Below, piece after piece: positions 3,316 to 37,168 of a DNA stretch of 53,771 nt. The position numbers and the translations under genes were made by a program. The DNA lies in NCBI GenBank assembly GCA_030066685.1, contig JASJBF010000053.1:1-53771 (forward strand), given 5' to 3'. Source of the DNA: Kiloniellales bacterium (GTDB lineage: Bacteria > Pseudomonadota > Alphaproteobacteria > Kiloniellales > JAKSBE01). The notes beneath the pieces are model-generated. The model made no database searches. It saw nothing but the letters and a program-made list of their open reading frames with translations, and was not told the origin of the DNA. How positions within the stretch are numbered: the stretch's first letter is position 1; every line of letters starts with the position of its first letter.

Positions 3316-4359
3316 ATGCGCTCAAGCAAAGCGGTCCATGTCATCGGCTGCCACGCCGAGGGCGAGGTCGGCGACGTCGTCGTCGGCGGTGTGGCGCCGC
3401 CGCCGGGCGAAACCCTCTGGGCGCAGGCGCGCTGGATCGCCGAGGACGGGCGCCTGCGGGACTTCCTGCTCAACGAGCCGCGCGGCGGCGTGTTCCGCCA
3501 CGTCAACCTCCTGGTTCCGGCCGTGGACCCGCGAGCCGCCATGGGCTTCATCATCATGGAGCCCATGCACACCCCGCCGATGTCCGGCTCCAACGCGATC
3601 TGCGTCGCGACGGTGCTGCTGGACAGCGGGATCCTAGCCATGACTGAGCCGGAGACCCGCTTCCACCTGGAGGCGCCGGGCGGGGTGATCGAGGTCCGGG
3701 CGGCCTGCCGCGACGGCAAGGCGGAGCGGATCACGATCCGCAACGTCGCCAGCTTCGTCGGTCGGCTCGACGCGGCGCTGGAGGTCGAGGGCCTGGGCAG
3801 CTTGACGGTCGACACCGCCTACGGTGGCGACAGCTTCGTCGTCGTCGACGCGGCGGCCCTGGGCTTCGAATTGACCGCCGCGGAGGCGCGGGATCTGGCC
3901 GAGGCCGGCGCCCGGATCACCGCGGCCGCCAACGCGCAGCTCGGTTTCTGGCACCCCGAGAACCCGGATTGGTCGCACATCTCCTTCTGCCTCTTCGCCG
4001 GCCCCCTAGGCCGGGAGGACGGTCTCTGGAGCGGCCGCAACGCCTGCTGCATCGATCCCGGCAAGATCGACCGCTCGCCGACCGGGACCGCGCTCTCGGC
4101 CCGCATGGCCCTGCTTCACGCCCGCGGCAAGATGAAGTTGGGCGAGGGCTTCCGCGCCCGCTCGATCATCGACTCCCGCTTCGAGGGCCGGATCGAGGCC
4201 GAGACCAGCCTCGGCGGCCGCCCGGCTATCCTGCCCTCGATCTCTGGGCGGGCCTGGATCACCGGCAGCCACCAGTACCTGCTCGACCCCGACGATCCCT
4301 GGCCTGCCGGCTACCGCCTGTCGGACACCTGGCCGATGCCGCGGAAGCCGAAGCCTTAA
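3316..4359 (+). CDS. Proline racemase superfamily enzyme, probable trans-3-hydroxy-L-proline dehydratase type
   Basis: 347 residues, full length for the superfamily of proline racemases, 4-hydroxyproline epimerases and trans-3-hydroxyproline dehydratases. Racemases use two Cys bases, one in an MCGHN motif and one in DRSPCGT. Here the corresponding motifs are MSGSNAIC (Ser90) and DRSPTGT (Thr256), so neither catalytic Cys is present. Thr at the second site is known from trans-3-hydroxyproline dehydratases, which makes dehydration to a pyrroline-2-carboxylate the best guess; racemization by the two-Cys mechanism is unlikely. The stop codon overlaps the 3' end of the convergent thioesterase gene. 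No ketimine reductase or transporter lies next to it; putA is about 10 kb downstream. Confidence 0.85.
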
Positions 4360-4772
4360 CCGGCCTCGGGCTCGCTGCCGCGGCGGTACTTGAAGACGCC
4401 GCTGCCCTCGGCGACCGGGCGGCCCTCCTGGTTGACGACCTTGCAGTCGCAGAAGAAAAGCTGCCGGCCGCCGCCGGTCCGGCGCGCCTCGGCGGTCAGA
4501 TGGTCGCCTTCGCGGACCGGGCCCAGGAAGTGGCAGGTCAGCGAGACGGTCATGGCCCGGCGCGGCCGTGCCGGATCCGGGCTGTAGCAGCCGCAGTAGC
4601 CGCAGGCGGAATCGATCAGGGTGGTCATGACGCCGCCGTGCAGGACCCCGCTGCGGTTGAGGTGCTCTTCCCGGATCTCCAGGCTGACCTCGGCGTGGTC
4701 GTCCCGCCAGGCGGTGACCCGGTAGCCGACCAGCTGGGCGAAGCGGCCCTGGTAGAGGTCTTGGCTCGACAT
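4356..4772 (-). CDS. PaaI-family hotdog-fold thioesterase
   Basis: 138 residues, single hotdog domain. The segment [21 protein letters not shown] is the PaaI/4HBT signature: HGG packs on the CoA and the following Asp takes part in catalysis. [16 protein letters not shown] and the final beta strand GSGVFKYR complete the fold. Family members hydrolyse acyl- or aryl-CoA thioesters. The gene is convergent with the proline-racemase homologue, and the two stop codons overlap by four bases. Upstream it faces the SOS promoter, so it is unlikely to belong to the neighbouring operon. Confidence 0.88.
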
Positions 4773-4844
4773 GCCCGCAGGCTGCCCGAGGCGGGCCCGA
4801 CTTGTCCAGGGACCTGGGCGGAGCGCCGGGGCAGGCTCCGTAAC

Positions 4845-4873
4845 TTGACTCCGGCAGGCGGGCTTTGTAGAAC
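4845..4873 (+). promoter_or_regulatory. Candidate sigma-70-type promoter of the imu operon
   Basis: TTGACT (4845-4850), a 17-base spacer, then TAGAAC (4868-4873). The -10 element overlaps the first LexA half-site, so repressor binding would block RNA polymerase directly. The predicted transcript starts only about 20-25 bases before the imuA ATG. Confidence 0.55.
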
Positions 4874-4884
4874 AAACATAGAAC
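4870..4884 (+). promoter_or_regulatory. LexA box 1 (GAAC-N7-GAAC)
   Basis: GAAC at 4870-4873 and GAAC at 4881-4884 with exactly seven bases between them. This direct repeat (GTTC-N7-GTTC on the other strand) is the known LexA operator of Alphaproteobacteria. It overlaps the candidate -10 element of the operon. Confidence 0.85.
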
Positions 4885-4885
4885 A

Positions 4886-4900
4886 GAACAAAAGCGGAAC
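4886..4900 (+). promoter_or_regulatory. LexA box 2 (GAAC-N7-GAAC)
   Basis: GAAC at 4886-4889 and 4897-4900, again with seven bases between. It starts one base after box 1, so the two 15-base operators are phased 16 bases apart, and it ends three bases before the imuA start codon. Confidence 0.8.
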
Positions 4901-4903
4901 ATC

Positions 4904-5743
4904 ATGCCGTCGGGGCCGGAAAATTGCGAAGCGGAGTTGCCGGAAGACTGCGAAGCTTGGGGGCTCGAGGCGCTGCGGGCGCGGATCCGCCTGCTCGAGC
5001 GTGGCGCCGGCCGGGCGGCGTGCGACGGCCTCGCCCTGGGCCTGCCTGCCCTGGACGCCGCGCTGCCGGCCGGCGGCCTGCCCCTGGCCGCCTTGCACGA
5101 GATCGCGCCGGGCAGGCCGGACTGGGACGACGGTCCCGTGACCGGCTTCTGCCTGGCCCTGCTGGTCCGGCTCGCCGCCCGCCGACCGGGGCCGGTGCTC
5201 TGGCTGGCCTCGAGCGGCGATCTCTACGCTCCCGGGCTGGCGGCCTTCGGCTTCGATCCGAGCCGCCTGATCGAGGGCCGGGCCAGGGGCGATGGCGAGG
5301 TCCTCTGGGCCATGGAGGAGGGTCTGCGCTCGGGCGCCCTGGCCGCGGTGGTGGCGGAGGTCGCCGAGCTCGAGGCCACCGCCGCCCGGCGCCTGCAGCT
5401 GGCGGCGGAATCCGGCGGACTTCCGGCCTTTCTGCTGCGCCGCTGGAGCCGGCCGGGGGCCGCGGCGCCGATCGCGGCGGCGACCCGCTGGCGGGTTTCG
5501 GCGCTGCCGGCCGACAGTTCTGCCCTGCCGGACAGCGGCATCGCCGAGCCGCGGCCGCGCTGGCGGGTCGAGCTCCTGCGCTGCCGGGCCGGACGACCGG
5601 GAAACTTTCTGATGGAGTGGGATCATGCGACGGGTGATTTCAGTCTGGTTGCCCCGTTTTGCGACCGACCGGGTGAGGCAGAGGGAAATCCGGGGGCAGG
5701 GGTCCCGGGGCGAGGCGCCGCGCAAGCCCGCCGGGCCGGCTAG
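4904..5743 (+). CDS. imuA: ImuA, RecA-like accessory protein of SOS mutagenesis
   Basis: 279 residues. It matches ImuA/SulA2-like proteins: LRARIRLLE near the N-terminus, LPALDAALPAGGLPLAALHEI (the RecA-like core without a true P-loop), VLWLASSGDLYAPGL, and the family's C-terminal RPGNFLMEWDHATGDFSLVAP. ImuA works with ImuB and DnaE2 in error-prone translesion synthesis after DNA damage. The start is ATG 4904. LexA box 2 fills the bases just upstream, so there is no good ribosome site; an in-frame TTG at 4937 is the alternative. The 3' end overlaps imuB by about 120 bases in another frame, and both proteins keep family-typical sequence through the overlap. Confidence 0.93.
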   Translation: MPSGPENCEAELPEDCEAWGLEALRARIRLLERGAGRAACDGLALGLPALDAALPAGGLPLAALHEIAPGRPDWDDGPVTGFCLALLVRLAARRPGPVLWLASSGDLYAPGLAAFGFDPSRLIEGRARGDGEVLWAMEEGLRSGALAAVVAEVAELEATAARRLQLAAESGGLPAFLLRRWSRPGAAAPIAAATRWRVSALPADSSALPDSGIAEPRPRWRVELLRCRAGRPGNFLMEWDHATGDFSLVAPFCDRPGEAEGNPGAGVPGRGAAQARRAG

Positions 5744-34453: not shown

Positions 34454-35362
34454 TCACTCGGCCGCCGGCCGGGAGGCCTTGTCGCCGACCTTCGGGAACT
34501 CCGAGACGTCGAGCTGGCCGGCGAACTCCCAAATCTCATCGCGTGCGCTGTCCAGGCTCTTGCAGGACAGCTTGCGCAGCTTTTCGTAGGGCAGGTCCAG
34601 GACCGTCAGGCCGTAGAGGAAGGCGTCGCGGTAGATCACCCGGTCGGACAGCCCCGGAATGATCCGGTAGCCCAGGGGATCGGCCAGCTCTTCGAGCAGG
34701 GCCGAGGTCTGCCGGCGATTGTGGCTTCTCGTCTTGGACACCCGGTTGCGCGCGACGCACCATTCGATCGGCCTGCCGCCGGTACGCATCCTGTGTCCCC
34801 AGCGGCTCAGGACCGAGAGGGCGTAGGTGCTCGGCCCGAAGACGGTCTGCGCATCGGCGTCGACCCGTGCGAAGACGTCCAGGTCCAGGAAGCTGTCGTT
34901 GATCGGCGTGATCAGCGTGTCGGCGACGATGTGGCCGAGGCGGGAAGCGTTGCTCTCGTTCCCGGGCGTGTCGACCACGACGACGTCCTTGTCCGAAAAC
35001 TCCTCCAGCGCTTCGAAGAAGCACTGGGCTTCCTCCCGATCGGCCTTGTGCCGGCTTGTCTTCGCAGAGGGCGCGATCAGGTAGTGCTTGGGCAGGTCCA
35101 GCTCGATACCCGGCGTCGACCTGAAGCGGTGGCGGTTCTCGAAGAAATGCGTGAGCGTGGCTTGGTTGCCGTCAAGGTCGATGCTGCCGACCGAATAGCC
35201 GCATTTCATCAGGCCGACGCTCAGATGAATGGCGGCCGTCGACTTACCCGATCCGCCCTTGAGGTTGCCGAGCACCACCACCCTGGGCCGGTAGATCTTG
35301 CCGAACCAACTTCGCAGGAACGACTCGATCAGGCTCGCACCGGTCCGGCGGAGAGGGAACAT
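34454..35362 (-). CDS. MipZ-like ParA-superfamily ATPase
   Basis: 302 residues from ATG 35362 (MFPLRRTGASLIE), with AGGAG 13 bases upstream. A deviant Walker A (LGNLKGGSGKSTAAIHL), SIDLDGNQATLTHFFENR and the Walker B-like VVVVDTPGNES are intact. ITPINDSFLDLDVFARVD closely matches MipZ, the ATPase that places the division plane by inhibiting FtsZ away from midcell in many Alphaproteobacteria. It carries a longer N-terminus and may be a second, specialised paralogue. It is divergent from another ParA gene across a 300-base region. Confidence 0.82.
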   Translation of the reverse strand: MFPLRRTGASLIESFLRSWFGKIYRPRVVVLGNLKGGSGKSTAAIHLSVGLMKCGYSVGSIDLDGNQATLTHFFENRHRFRSTPGIELDLPKHYLIAPSAKTSRHKADREEAQCFFEALEEFSDKDVVVVDTPGNESNASRLGHIVADTLITPINDSFLDLDVFARVDADAQTVFGPSTYALSVLSRWGHRMRTGGRPIEWCVARNRVSKTRSHNRRQTSALLEELADPLGYRIIPGLSDRVIYRDAFLYGLTVLDLPYEKLRKLSCKSLDSARDEIWEFAGQLDVSEFPKVGDKASRPAAE

Positions 35363-35663
35363 GGCCGTTGCATTGCTCCTGCTTGATTTCCAAGGGATTT
35401 CAGCCGGACCTTGACACAAGCTGGGCCGCGTGGCAACGAAATGTTGCGATAATTGTGTTTCAATCTACTACATATGGGGTCTCGCGCTTGTTGAACCTGC
35501 CCGATGCGTCCACCCATCGACCGCCGCCGCTCGCGGACGTGGGTGCGGCGGTAGGGCGGTGGATCGACCATGACCCGAACACGCAGTCCCGCAGAACCAA
35601 CTCGATACCTGCATGCCGTGGCTTGGGAAGTCGGTCGGCCGGAGGTGAAGGAGAACGCGCGAA
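35363..35663. promoter_or_regulatory. Divergent control region between two ParA-type ATPase genes
   Basis: About 300 bases without a supported gene. It contains a perfect dyad GCAAC (35433-35437), gaaat, GTTGC (35443-35447), in an AT-richer stretch. A possible plus-strand promoter is TTGCGA (35444-35449) with TACTAC about 16 bases on. ParA-type proteins often control their own promoters; the dyad is the only candidate site I see. Confidence 0.4.
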
Positions 35664-36359
35664 ATGAAGATTCTTGTGCTTGCCGCGCAGAAGGGTGGCT
35701 CCGGCAAGACGACTCTGGCCACCAACATCGCCGTCGAGGCCGAGCGCATGGGCGACGGTCCGGTCGCGCTGATCGACACGGACCCGCAGGGCAGCCTTGC
35801 CGAGTGGTCGGAAGAGAGGGAGTCGCGCACCCCGATCCTCGCGCAATGCTCCACCCACAAGCTGGCGCAGAAGCTGACAGAGATGCGGGACGCCGGCGTC
35901 GGGCTGGTGGTCATCGACACCCCGCCGGCGATCAAGGCCGCCATCGCCCAGGTGATCAGCGCCTCCGACCTGGTCGTTATCCCGATGCGCCCCAGCGCGC
36001 ACGACCTGCGGGCGGTCGGCAAGACCATCGATATCGCGGAGAACCTCGGCAAGCCTTTCGTCTTCGTGGTCAACGGCGCACACCCGACCGCGCGGATCAC
36101 GATGCAGGCCGTCCTGGCGCTGTCGGAGCACGGCCCCGTCGCACCGAGCATCATTCACCAACGGATGGACTTCGCGGCCAGCGCCATCGACGGCCGCGCG
36201 GTGATGGAGGTTGCGGGACGGTCGCGCTCGCCCAGCGAAATCGCCGCGCTCTGGCAGTACCTGAAGGACTGCCTCAGCGGCACCCGGGATCGGTCCCGTG
36301 TCAGGCCAGTGCCGTCGCGGGAGCCGGTGGCGGCGCCGGTCGGAGAGGCAAGGGCTTGA
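35664..36359 (+). CDS. ParA-family partition-type ATPase
   Basis: 231 residues. The P-loop LAAQKGGSGKTTLATNIAVEA, LIDTDPQGSLAEWSEERE and VVIDTPPAIKAA are standard for small ParA/ParF-type ATPases that bind DNA nonspecifically and move cargo along the nucleoid. No ParB or centromere-like repeat lies nearby, so this is an orphan ParA rather than the chromosome-segregation one. The stop TGA overlaps the TTG start of the next gene, so its partner is probably that protein. Confidence 0.9.
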   Translation: MKILVLAAQKGGSGKTTLATNIAVEAERMGDGPVALIDTDPQGSLAEWSEERESRTPILAQCSTHKLAQKLTEMRDAGVGLVVIDTPPAIKAAIAQVISASDLVVIPMRPSAHDLRAVGKTIDIAENLGKPFVFVVNGAHPTARITMQAVLALSEHGPVAPSIIHQRMDFAASAIDGRAVMEVAGRSRSPSEIAALWQYLKDCLSGTRDRSRVRPVPSREPVAAPVGEARA

Positions 36360-37168
36360 GCAAGCGGAAACCCAAACCCTTGAAGCGGGCCGCGTCGCTT
36401 TCGAGCGCCCTGCTCAAGACCGGCGGGGCGGCGCGCGAAGCCAGCGCCCCGAGGCCGGTCGCGAAGCGGCCGAGCTTCGCCCAAGAGCCGGGGCCCTCGA
36501 CGCAAGAGCCGGGGCTCCAAGCAAAGGCGCCCCAGCCTCTGGCGCAGGAATCAAGGCCTATGGCGCAAGAGCCGAGGCCCTTGGCCAAGCAGACGCCCGC
36601 AGACCCGCCCGTTGAGCCAAAGCCCTCGGTTTCGGGGCTGGAGCCGGATGCCTTCGACGGCTTGCTGCCCGGCCTGCTGAGGTCCGAGCCGGAGGCGGCG
36701 CCGGCGAAGAAGCGCCCTGCAGAGCCGTCGCCTCCGCCGCGACTGCTGGATCAGTTCGAGTGCCTGCAGTCGAGGAACCAGGAACTGGCCCTGAAAGAGG
36801 CGGGCAAGGCCGGCTCCTTCTCGACGAGTTTCCTGAGAAATCTGCGCGCCGGCCGCTTTGCCGATGCGGAGGTCGACTTCGCCCGGGTCATGACCCTCGA
36901 ACCTCAGATCGCGCGGAAGGTCCTCTACAACGCCGAGCTTGAGGATCTCGCCATCATTTGTCGCGCGATCGGCTTCAAGCCCCTGGAGTTCGCCACCATC
37001 GTCGCCTTGCTTCGGGGGTCGAAGGGGACCAGGGGCCTCTCCGCGCCGGACCAGCTCAAAGCCTCGCTTGGCATCTTCGAGAGCATCGACCGCGACTGCG
37101 CCCTGGGGCTTCTGGAGCACATCCCCTGGCTGCCGCAGCGGGACTGGCAAGCCCTGAAGAGCGCCTGA
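36356..37168 (+). CDS. DUF2336-like protein with Pro/Glu/Gln-rich linker, coupled to ParA
   Basis: 270 residues starting at TTG 36356, which overlaps the ParA stop by four bases (TTGA), with GGAGAGGCAAGGG upstream. Residues 40-100 are a low-complexity linker with repeated Q-E-P/S-x-P units (AQEPGPSTQEPGL; LAQESRPMAQEPRPLA). The C-terminal half is helical; FLRNLRAGRFADAEVDFARV and ARKVLYNAELEDLAIICRA recall the C-terminus of DUF2336 proteins. It could be the adaptor that links the ParA to its cargo. The gene is convergent with the acyl-CoA synthetase gene. Confidence 0.7.
   Translation: MSKRKPKPLKRAASLSSALLKTGGAAREASAPRPVAKRPSFAQEPGPSTQEPGLQAKAPQPLAQESRPMAQEPRPLAKQTPADPPVEPKPSVSGLEPDAFDGLLPGLLRSEPEAAPAKKRPAEPSPPPRLLDQFECLQSRNQELALKEAGKAGSFSTSFLRNLRAGRFADAEVDFARVMTLEPQIARKVLYNAELEDLAIICRAIGFKPLEFATIVALLRGSKGTRGLSAPDQLKASLGIFESIDRDCALGLLEHIPWLPQRDWQALKSA

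Follow-up and report, generated by a model that had tools for sequence, protein, structure and literature searches.

In the ParF-ParG system of plasmid TP228, a small ParA without an N-terminal helix-turn-helix (HTH) is coupled to a partner with a disordered N-terminal tail, and the flexible N-terminal tails of ParG are reported to stimulate ParF (PMC7308502). PpfA-TlpT, McdA-McdB and ParC-ParP likewise combine a ParA that lacks ParB with a dedicated partner. According to one account, a disordered N-terminus with positive charge is what partners have been shown or suggested to use for docking on ParA/MinD ATPases, and many ParAs have been termed orphan merely because their partners went unrecognised (PMC10241942). 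The locus described here shares with ParF-ParG a small ParA without an HTH and a coupled partner, and with the other three systems a ParA that lacks ParB and has a dedicated partner. It differs from ParF-ParG in being chromosomal, in having no known centromere and in a partner that carries the C-terminal part of DUF2336 and gives no ribbon-helix-helix match; it differs from PpfA-TlpT, McdA-McdB and ParC-ParP in that one peptide is common to several unrelated adaptor bodies within one ParA family.

The window, by which we mean the whole stretch of 53,771 nt analysed, is contig C53 of a 5.96-Mb assembly of 73 contigs. Based on the ORF list and the sequence, the locus (34454-37168) consists of a MipZ-family gene, mipZ2, encoding a second MipZ of 302 aa (34454-35362, minus strand), a divergently oriented orphan ParA gene of the ParF-like kind (231 aa; 35664-36359, plus strand) and, directly behind parA, a partner gene encoding a 270-aa adaptor from a TTG start (36356-37168, plus strand), a call supported by same-genus orthologues. 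We set the mipZ2 start at ATG 35362, an ATG kept in both same-genus genomes (G001 and G002), whereas the listed 321-aa ORF begins at TTG 35419; counted from the ATG, the shared intergenic control region is 301 nt long (35363-35663) and contains blocks conserved in G001 and G002. The first-pass annotation had described two different ParA-superfamily ATPases with a common control region of about 300 bases, and a ParA stop codon overlapping the TTG of the partner. Both descriptions proved right, the overlap being the 4-nt TTGA at 36356-36359, which recurs in both same-genus genomes. The control region also contains a perfect inverted repeat, GCAAC-N5-GTTGC (35433-35447), a candidate operator that is the same in three same-genus genomes; its 17-nt core occurred once in the window versus 0.07 expected when up to three mismatches were allowed, and the repeat was not seen in the loci of G013, G019 and G006. 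A promoter and terminator scan returned nothing beyond shuffled sequence.

The window ParA starts at its deviant Walker A box, KGGSGKT, located at residue 10, and has no N-terminal HTH. Its top Pfam match was AAA_31 (PF13614; 54.8 bits, 1.5e-14); it also exceeded the lax MipZ cut-off (35.1 versus 20.7 bits for PF09140, a cut-off exceeded in 14/14 control genomes) and fell under that of NF041546 (163 versus 180 bits). Among solved structures, 5u1g (1.7e-15) and ParF (4dzz, 1.8e-15) tied as closest, making the protein a sequence relative of ParF. Within its own genome the closely related ParAs were those of C53, C31 (52%) and C51 (60%), further ParA-like matches being weaker. A profile search of this genome gave no ParB_N match on the window contig; matches above cut-off were confined to C10, where the match immediately follows a canonical ParA, and to C18, with a weaker one on C8. 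The window ParA therefore has no linked ParB. The earlier statement that this ATPase lacks a ParB is thus right for linkage, and, as far as gene order tells, the ParA does not appear tied to an unlinked ParB. The C18 match (G000:C18:115248-115526) lies in a 615-aa frame away from the canonical parAB.

The C-terminal part of the adaptor (helical domain, 36740-37165) matched DUF2336 (PF10098) at 36791-37108 with 42.9 bits (cut-off 34.6), although only profile positions 155-259 of 262 were aligned, so that the whole profile is not covered; instead of the first ~150 profile positions, the adaptor has a peptide and a linker. DUF2336 was the sole Pfam family found at E values up to 1. In the predicted structure (four sequences), the N-terminal half was disordered and the C-terminal domain helical, with helices from residue 130 and confident modelling from about residue 151 except for a loop at 221-230, in agreement with the DUF2336-like helical end proposed at first pass. 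The repeat-rich linker proposed there is present (36443-36739; low-complexity, predicted disordered, pLDDT <60), but it is proline-rich and weakly repetitive, and both its length and its sequence vary among relatives. Fold searches with the model yielded nothing informative (best Foldseek E 0.71, best VIA-align Z 3.9), and we therefore name no fold for the adaptor. Elsewhere in the same genome, seven open frames contain a further nine matches to PF10098; inspected by eye, one full-length DUF2336 gene stands amid apparent two-component genes, and no common pathway was seen among the neighbours of these genes.

Neighbourhood conservation, suggested as a check in the first-pass annotation, was found: two families of Kiloniellales, with six genomes between them (those of the window, G001, G002, G013, G019 and G006), have the divergent mipZ2-parA-partner arrangement, and a seventh genome (G059) has the parA-partner pair at a contig end, several loci in the analysis being cut by contig ends. 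In a quick-method tree of 69 rows that left out the G059 ParA, the six trio ParAs group together as a single clade (SH-aLRT 97), as do the six MipZ2 proteins in a tree of 31 rows (100/100, with a program warning that long branches meet). The deviant Walker A KGGSGKT was present in 6/6 aligned trio ParAs, and position 21 was N in all six versus H in 63/63 others. When 190 genomes were searched with the partner, same-genus orthologues (G001 and G002; 68 and 64% identity) and shorter relatives were recovered. Across 385 sampled genomes of the class, 117, the window genome included, had matches to the partner alignment; among the matches listed, no other one spans the full partner, most lie in 370-460-aa frames corresponding to full-length DUF2336, and partners with only the C-terminal part of DUF2336 occur in 7 genomes of one order. 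The G059 partner scored 34.5 bits against PF10098, just below the 34.6 cut-off.

The gene behind ParF-like ParAs usually begins with one peptide, approximately ASLxxxLLxRKGxAxP, whatever body follows. To score it, we used a PSSM built from 32 non-DUF2336 partners and run on 11,685 ORFs, with the best unrelated ORF (13.5 bits) as threshold; a first regex motif had missed the DUF2336 class, and the PSSM took over. The next gene scored above 13.5 at 123/131 loci overall and at 70/74 loci outside training, the out-of-sample failures being L139, L140, L172 and L173, of which L172 ends inside a visible peptide start. The 131 exclude six named loci that repeat order loci (L113, L114, L115, L121, L124 and L126), and L109, which ends inside ParA, contributed no partner. 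Of 20 further class loci (from 60) scanned for the peptide, 18 passed and L312 and L313 failed. K15, G16, A18 and P20 were invariant in 70/70 scored out-of-sample partners. The peptide lies a median of 20 nt, and up to 297 nt, from the gene junction. Searching 59 order genomes with a profile of 31 peptides gave 52 matches at E<=0.01, of which 45 lay within 600 nt of a ParF-like ParA and 5 more within 6 kb; the remaining two were a 457-aa frame of receiver-MipZ size on another contig and one probably chance match. Because the 31 peptides in this profile were themselves taken from loci of this kind, this is a test of specificity and not of sensitivity. In the window genome, peptide matches at E<0.3 were solely the three ParA partners.

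In the window adaptor, a degenerate docking-peptide-like segment, LKRAASLSSALLKTGGAAREA (36380-36442, plus strand), scored 11.0 bits, with six distinct unrelated ORFs of the 11,685 scoring higher; it keeps ASLSxxLL, G16 and A18 and has lost K15 and P20. The same-genus partners scored 7.2 and 8.5 bits and the G059 partner 1.2, and the other trio partners retain mainly the first half of the peptide, most of RKGxAxP being gone in all. Among proteins outside the training set and its near copies, this non-DUF2336 PSSM ranked the G013 and G019 partners (17.5 bits) and the G006 partner (16.2) above every unrelated ORF. An HMM of the same rows, which is less sensitive than the PSSM, gave E values of 0.022 (G006), 0.29 (G019) and 0.49 (G013), and the window partner was not among the matches listed in that search; against the A4 peptide profile, in which its own peptide is included, it gave 5.6e-4. 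Judged from these sequences, the N-terminus of the window adaptor seems to be a worn form of the shared docking peptide, and the missing lysine may imply weaker stimulation or a co-evolved interface.

The bodies behind the peptide differ and include ribbon-helix-helix-like, SPOR, receiver and DUF2336 domains. Partner classes were assigned on the ParA tree partly by eye, with Pfam confirming SPOR in 23/56 and DUF2336 in 6/56 partners, the G059 partner having scored too low to enter the set. In a second set SPOR was found in 8/70, and the commonest ribbon-helix-helix model, Antitox_RHH, matched 9/56 and 26/70 partners, mostly weakly. Locus L084 has two tandem adaptors at one ParA (4273-5031, minus strand), the first with the docking peptide; the second also combines the peptide (30.0 bits, beyond the training rows) with a Response_reg receiver (PF00072, 3.3e-25). 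Fusions of a receiver to MipZ lie a few kb from ParA at L074, L095, L097, L100 and L102. That of L074 (10855-12249) runs receiver-linker-MipZ (PF00072 5.8e-28, PF09140 313 bits), and its linker reached 16.1 bits with the peptide PSSM, the other four linkers scoring 6.7-11.9. The adaptors of L081, L083, L085 and L086 carry the docking peptide with a body of unclassified kind, that of L081 giving no Pfam match. The cultured relative Pelagibius litoralis has a ParA whose partner looks SPOR-like by eye.

The ParF-like ParA family was present in 53/385 sampled class genomes (profile, E<=1e-60), and matches to the window ParA in 33/61 order genomes. DUF2336 genes occurred within ~7 kb at 16/60 class ParA loci (24 genes, seven families), all 24 upstream of ParA on the same strand, and at 3/74 named loci. 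These 60 class loci are what remains of 65 listed places once five that were already covered, three from the window genome and two from G011, are taken away; seven DUF2336 loci had first been noticed through hit proximity. Pfam placed 10/10 of the upstream proteins run above cut-off, the other DUF2336 neighbours being identified with profiles built in this analysis. The loci concerned are L294-L300, L308-L311, L317, L331, L334, L346 and L347, about half of which have two such genes. A MipZ gene was near 30/58 Kiloniellales ParA loci, in three arrangements (divergent at 6 loci, convergent on the far side of the partner gene at 19 and as receiver-MipZ at 5), compared with 1/60 class and 0/74 named loci outside the Kiloniellales set, the named count rising above 0 if L121 and L126, left out with MipZ nearby, are included; the MipZ link is therefore largely confined to Kiloniellales. 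The named and class counts are not additive because contigs are partly common to both, and G005 belongs to the order set as well; nor are locus counts independent events, since many loci are closely related. At L024 (G000:C31), the stronger MipZ of the window genome is convergent to a ParA that precedes a SPOR protein, in which a membrane span is likely by eye.

The MipZ-like identity assigned to the first ATPase was borne out by PF09140 (257.4 bits) and by the match to the Caulobacter MipZ structure 2xj4 (4.4e-48). Counting the mipZ and parAB genes of the genome, as had been proposed, gave two strong MipZ matches, on C31 (325 bits) and C53 (257 bits), five far weaker ones, and the canonical ParA-ParB_N pair on C10. 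With residue roles taken from accounts in PMC7229837 and PMC3355305, MipZ2 resembles Caulobacter MipZ in retaining all the nucleotide-cycle residues K13, G14, K18 and D42. Unlike it, MipZ2 is encoded divergently from an orphan ParA, has another N-terminal stretch and is changed at some DNA-binding residues: of nine such positions, 3/9 are identical and one is a K-to-R change, and R194 and R198, termed essential for DNA binding in Caulobacter (PMC7229837), are among those changed. Two MipZ-like proteins per genome are also described for Magnetospirillum (MipZ1/MipZ2; PMC7022226), a likeness in number. Common to the MipZ2 proteins is a short hydrophobic pattern at the N-terminus, around WF and before RPRV, which was not seen by eye in MipZs convergent to ParA and is possibly a membrane or protein contact. 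A docking peptide in the MipZ2 N-terminus was considered and rejected (PSSM -14.3 bits).

That the orphan ParA has a coupled adaptor, as the first-pass annotation held, is well supported: the pair is conserved, as the trio in six genomes and the contig-end pair attest, no ParB lies nearby, and the partner occupies the slot of the peptide protein. Judging from sequence, we think it probable that the locus is a nucleoid-based, chromosomal ParF/ParG-like positioning module with the DUF2336 adaptor as partner. ATP-bound ParA would coat the nucleoid as a dimer, the partner would dock on this dimer with its disordered N-terminus and trigger hydrolysis, and the C-terminal DUF2336 domain, standing in for the usual DNA-binding partner, would hold a cargo that is thereby moved or spaced along the nucleoid; the divergent MipZ2 would be co-regulated and would couple positioning to division-site (FtsZ) control. 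We infer ParA-partner binding, control of hydrolysis, the cargo and the division link alike. Counting against this positioning module are the erosion of the RKGxAxP half of the peptide in the trio partners, the loss of R194 and R198 in MipZ2, the confinement of C-terminal-only DUF2336 partners to one order and the rarity of MipZ near ParA outside Kiloniellales.

The same pair might instead form a regulatory switch, in which the partner acts as an ATPase activator or sequestering protein feeding a signalling pathway. Receivers in sister adaptors (the second adaptor of L084 and the receiver-MipZ fusions near ParA) and the full-length DUF2336 gene among apparent two-component genes would fit such a switch; we nevertheless regard it as improbable, since the nearest solved relative of the window ParA is a segregation ATPase and sister partners are SPOR proteins or give mostly weak ribbon-helix-helix matches, both kinds being natural positioning targets. 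Still less probable, in our judgement, is that the N-terminal peptide is another common element, such as a membrane, degradation or translation-coupling signal, and not a ParA-binding tag. The peptide, for which ParA binding is predicted, usually sits close to the gene junction, but it is conserved as protein, can stand far from the junction, and recurs in the second adaptor of L084 and in receiver-MipZ frames away from the junction. MipZ2 could also be a mere neighbour, a second division regulator whose control region is common with an unrelated ParA pair, and divergent promoters often join unrelated genes. The missing docking peptide in MipZ2, the near absence of the MipZ link beyond Kiloniellales and the minor division effect described for the second MipZ of Magnetospirillum (PMC7022226) favour this neighbour relation, which we consider rather doubtful given that MipZ accompanies about half of the Kiloniellales ParA loci in several arrangements, that the divergent pair is maintained across two families and that receiver-MipZ linkers are peptide-like, although only 1/5 (L074) tops the best unrelated ORF.

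We found no mention of DUF2336 in the open PMC papers searched. Nor did the system appear in the titles and abstract starts of open PMC papers listed for paralogues of MipZ, for ParA together with SPOR, for orphan ParAs or for a conserved N-terminal motif. The suggestion of an undescribed positioning system thus stands, as far as open papers go, for DUF2336 and the common peptide; it does not extend to docking through a disordered N-terminus, which is already published (PMC10241942). More tentatively, and with somewhat less than even confidence, we propose that one ParF-like ParA family is a general-purpose nucleoid transporter of alphaproteobacteria, its docking tag acting as an interchangeable-cargo code on DNA-binding, septal-wall (SPOR), phospho-receiver, MipZ and DUF2336 bodies, with the trio as the DUF2336 branch in which the tag has diverged and the ATPase has changed with it. 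If this were true, sister ATPases would move chromosome, division-site and signalling proteins. The conserved docking peptide provides a sequence handle for finding ParA partners and cargoes, DUF2336 gains a testable context, and the locus suggests that MipZ division control is linked to other positioning ATPases.
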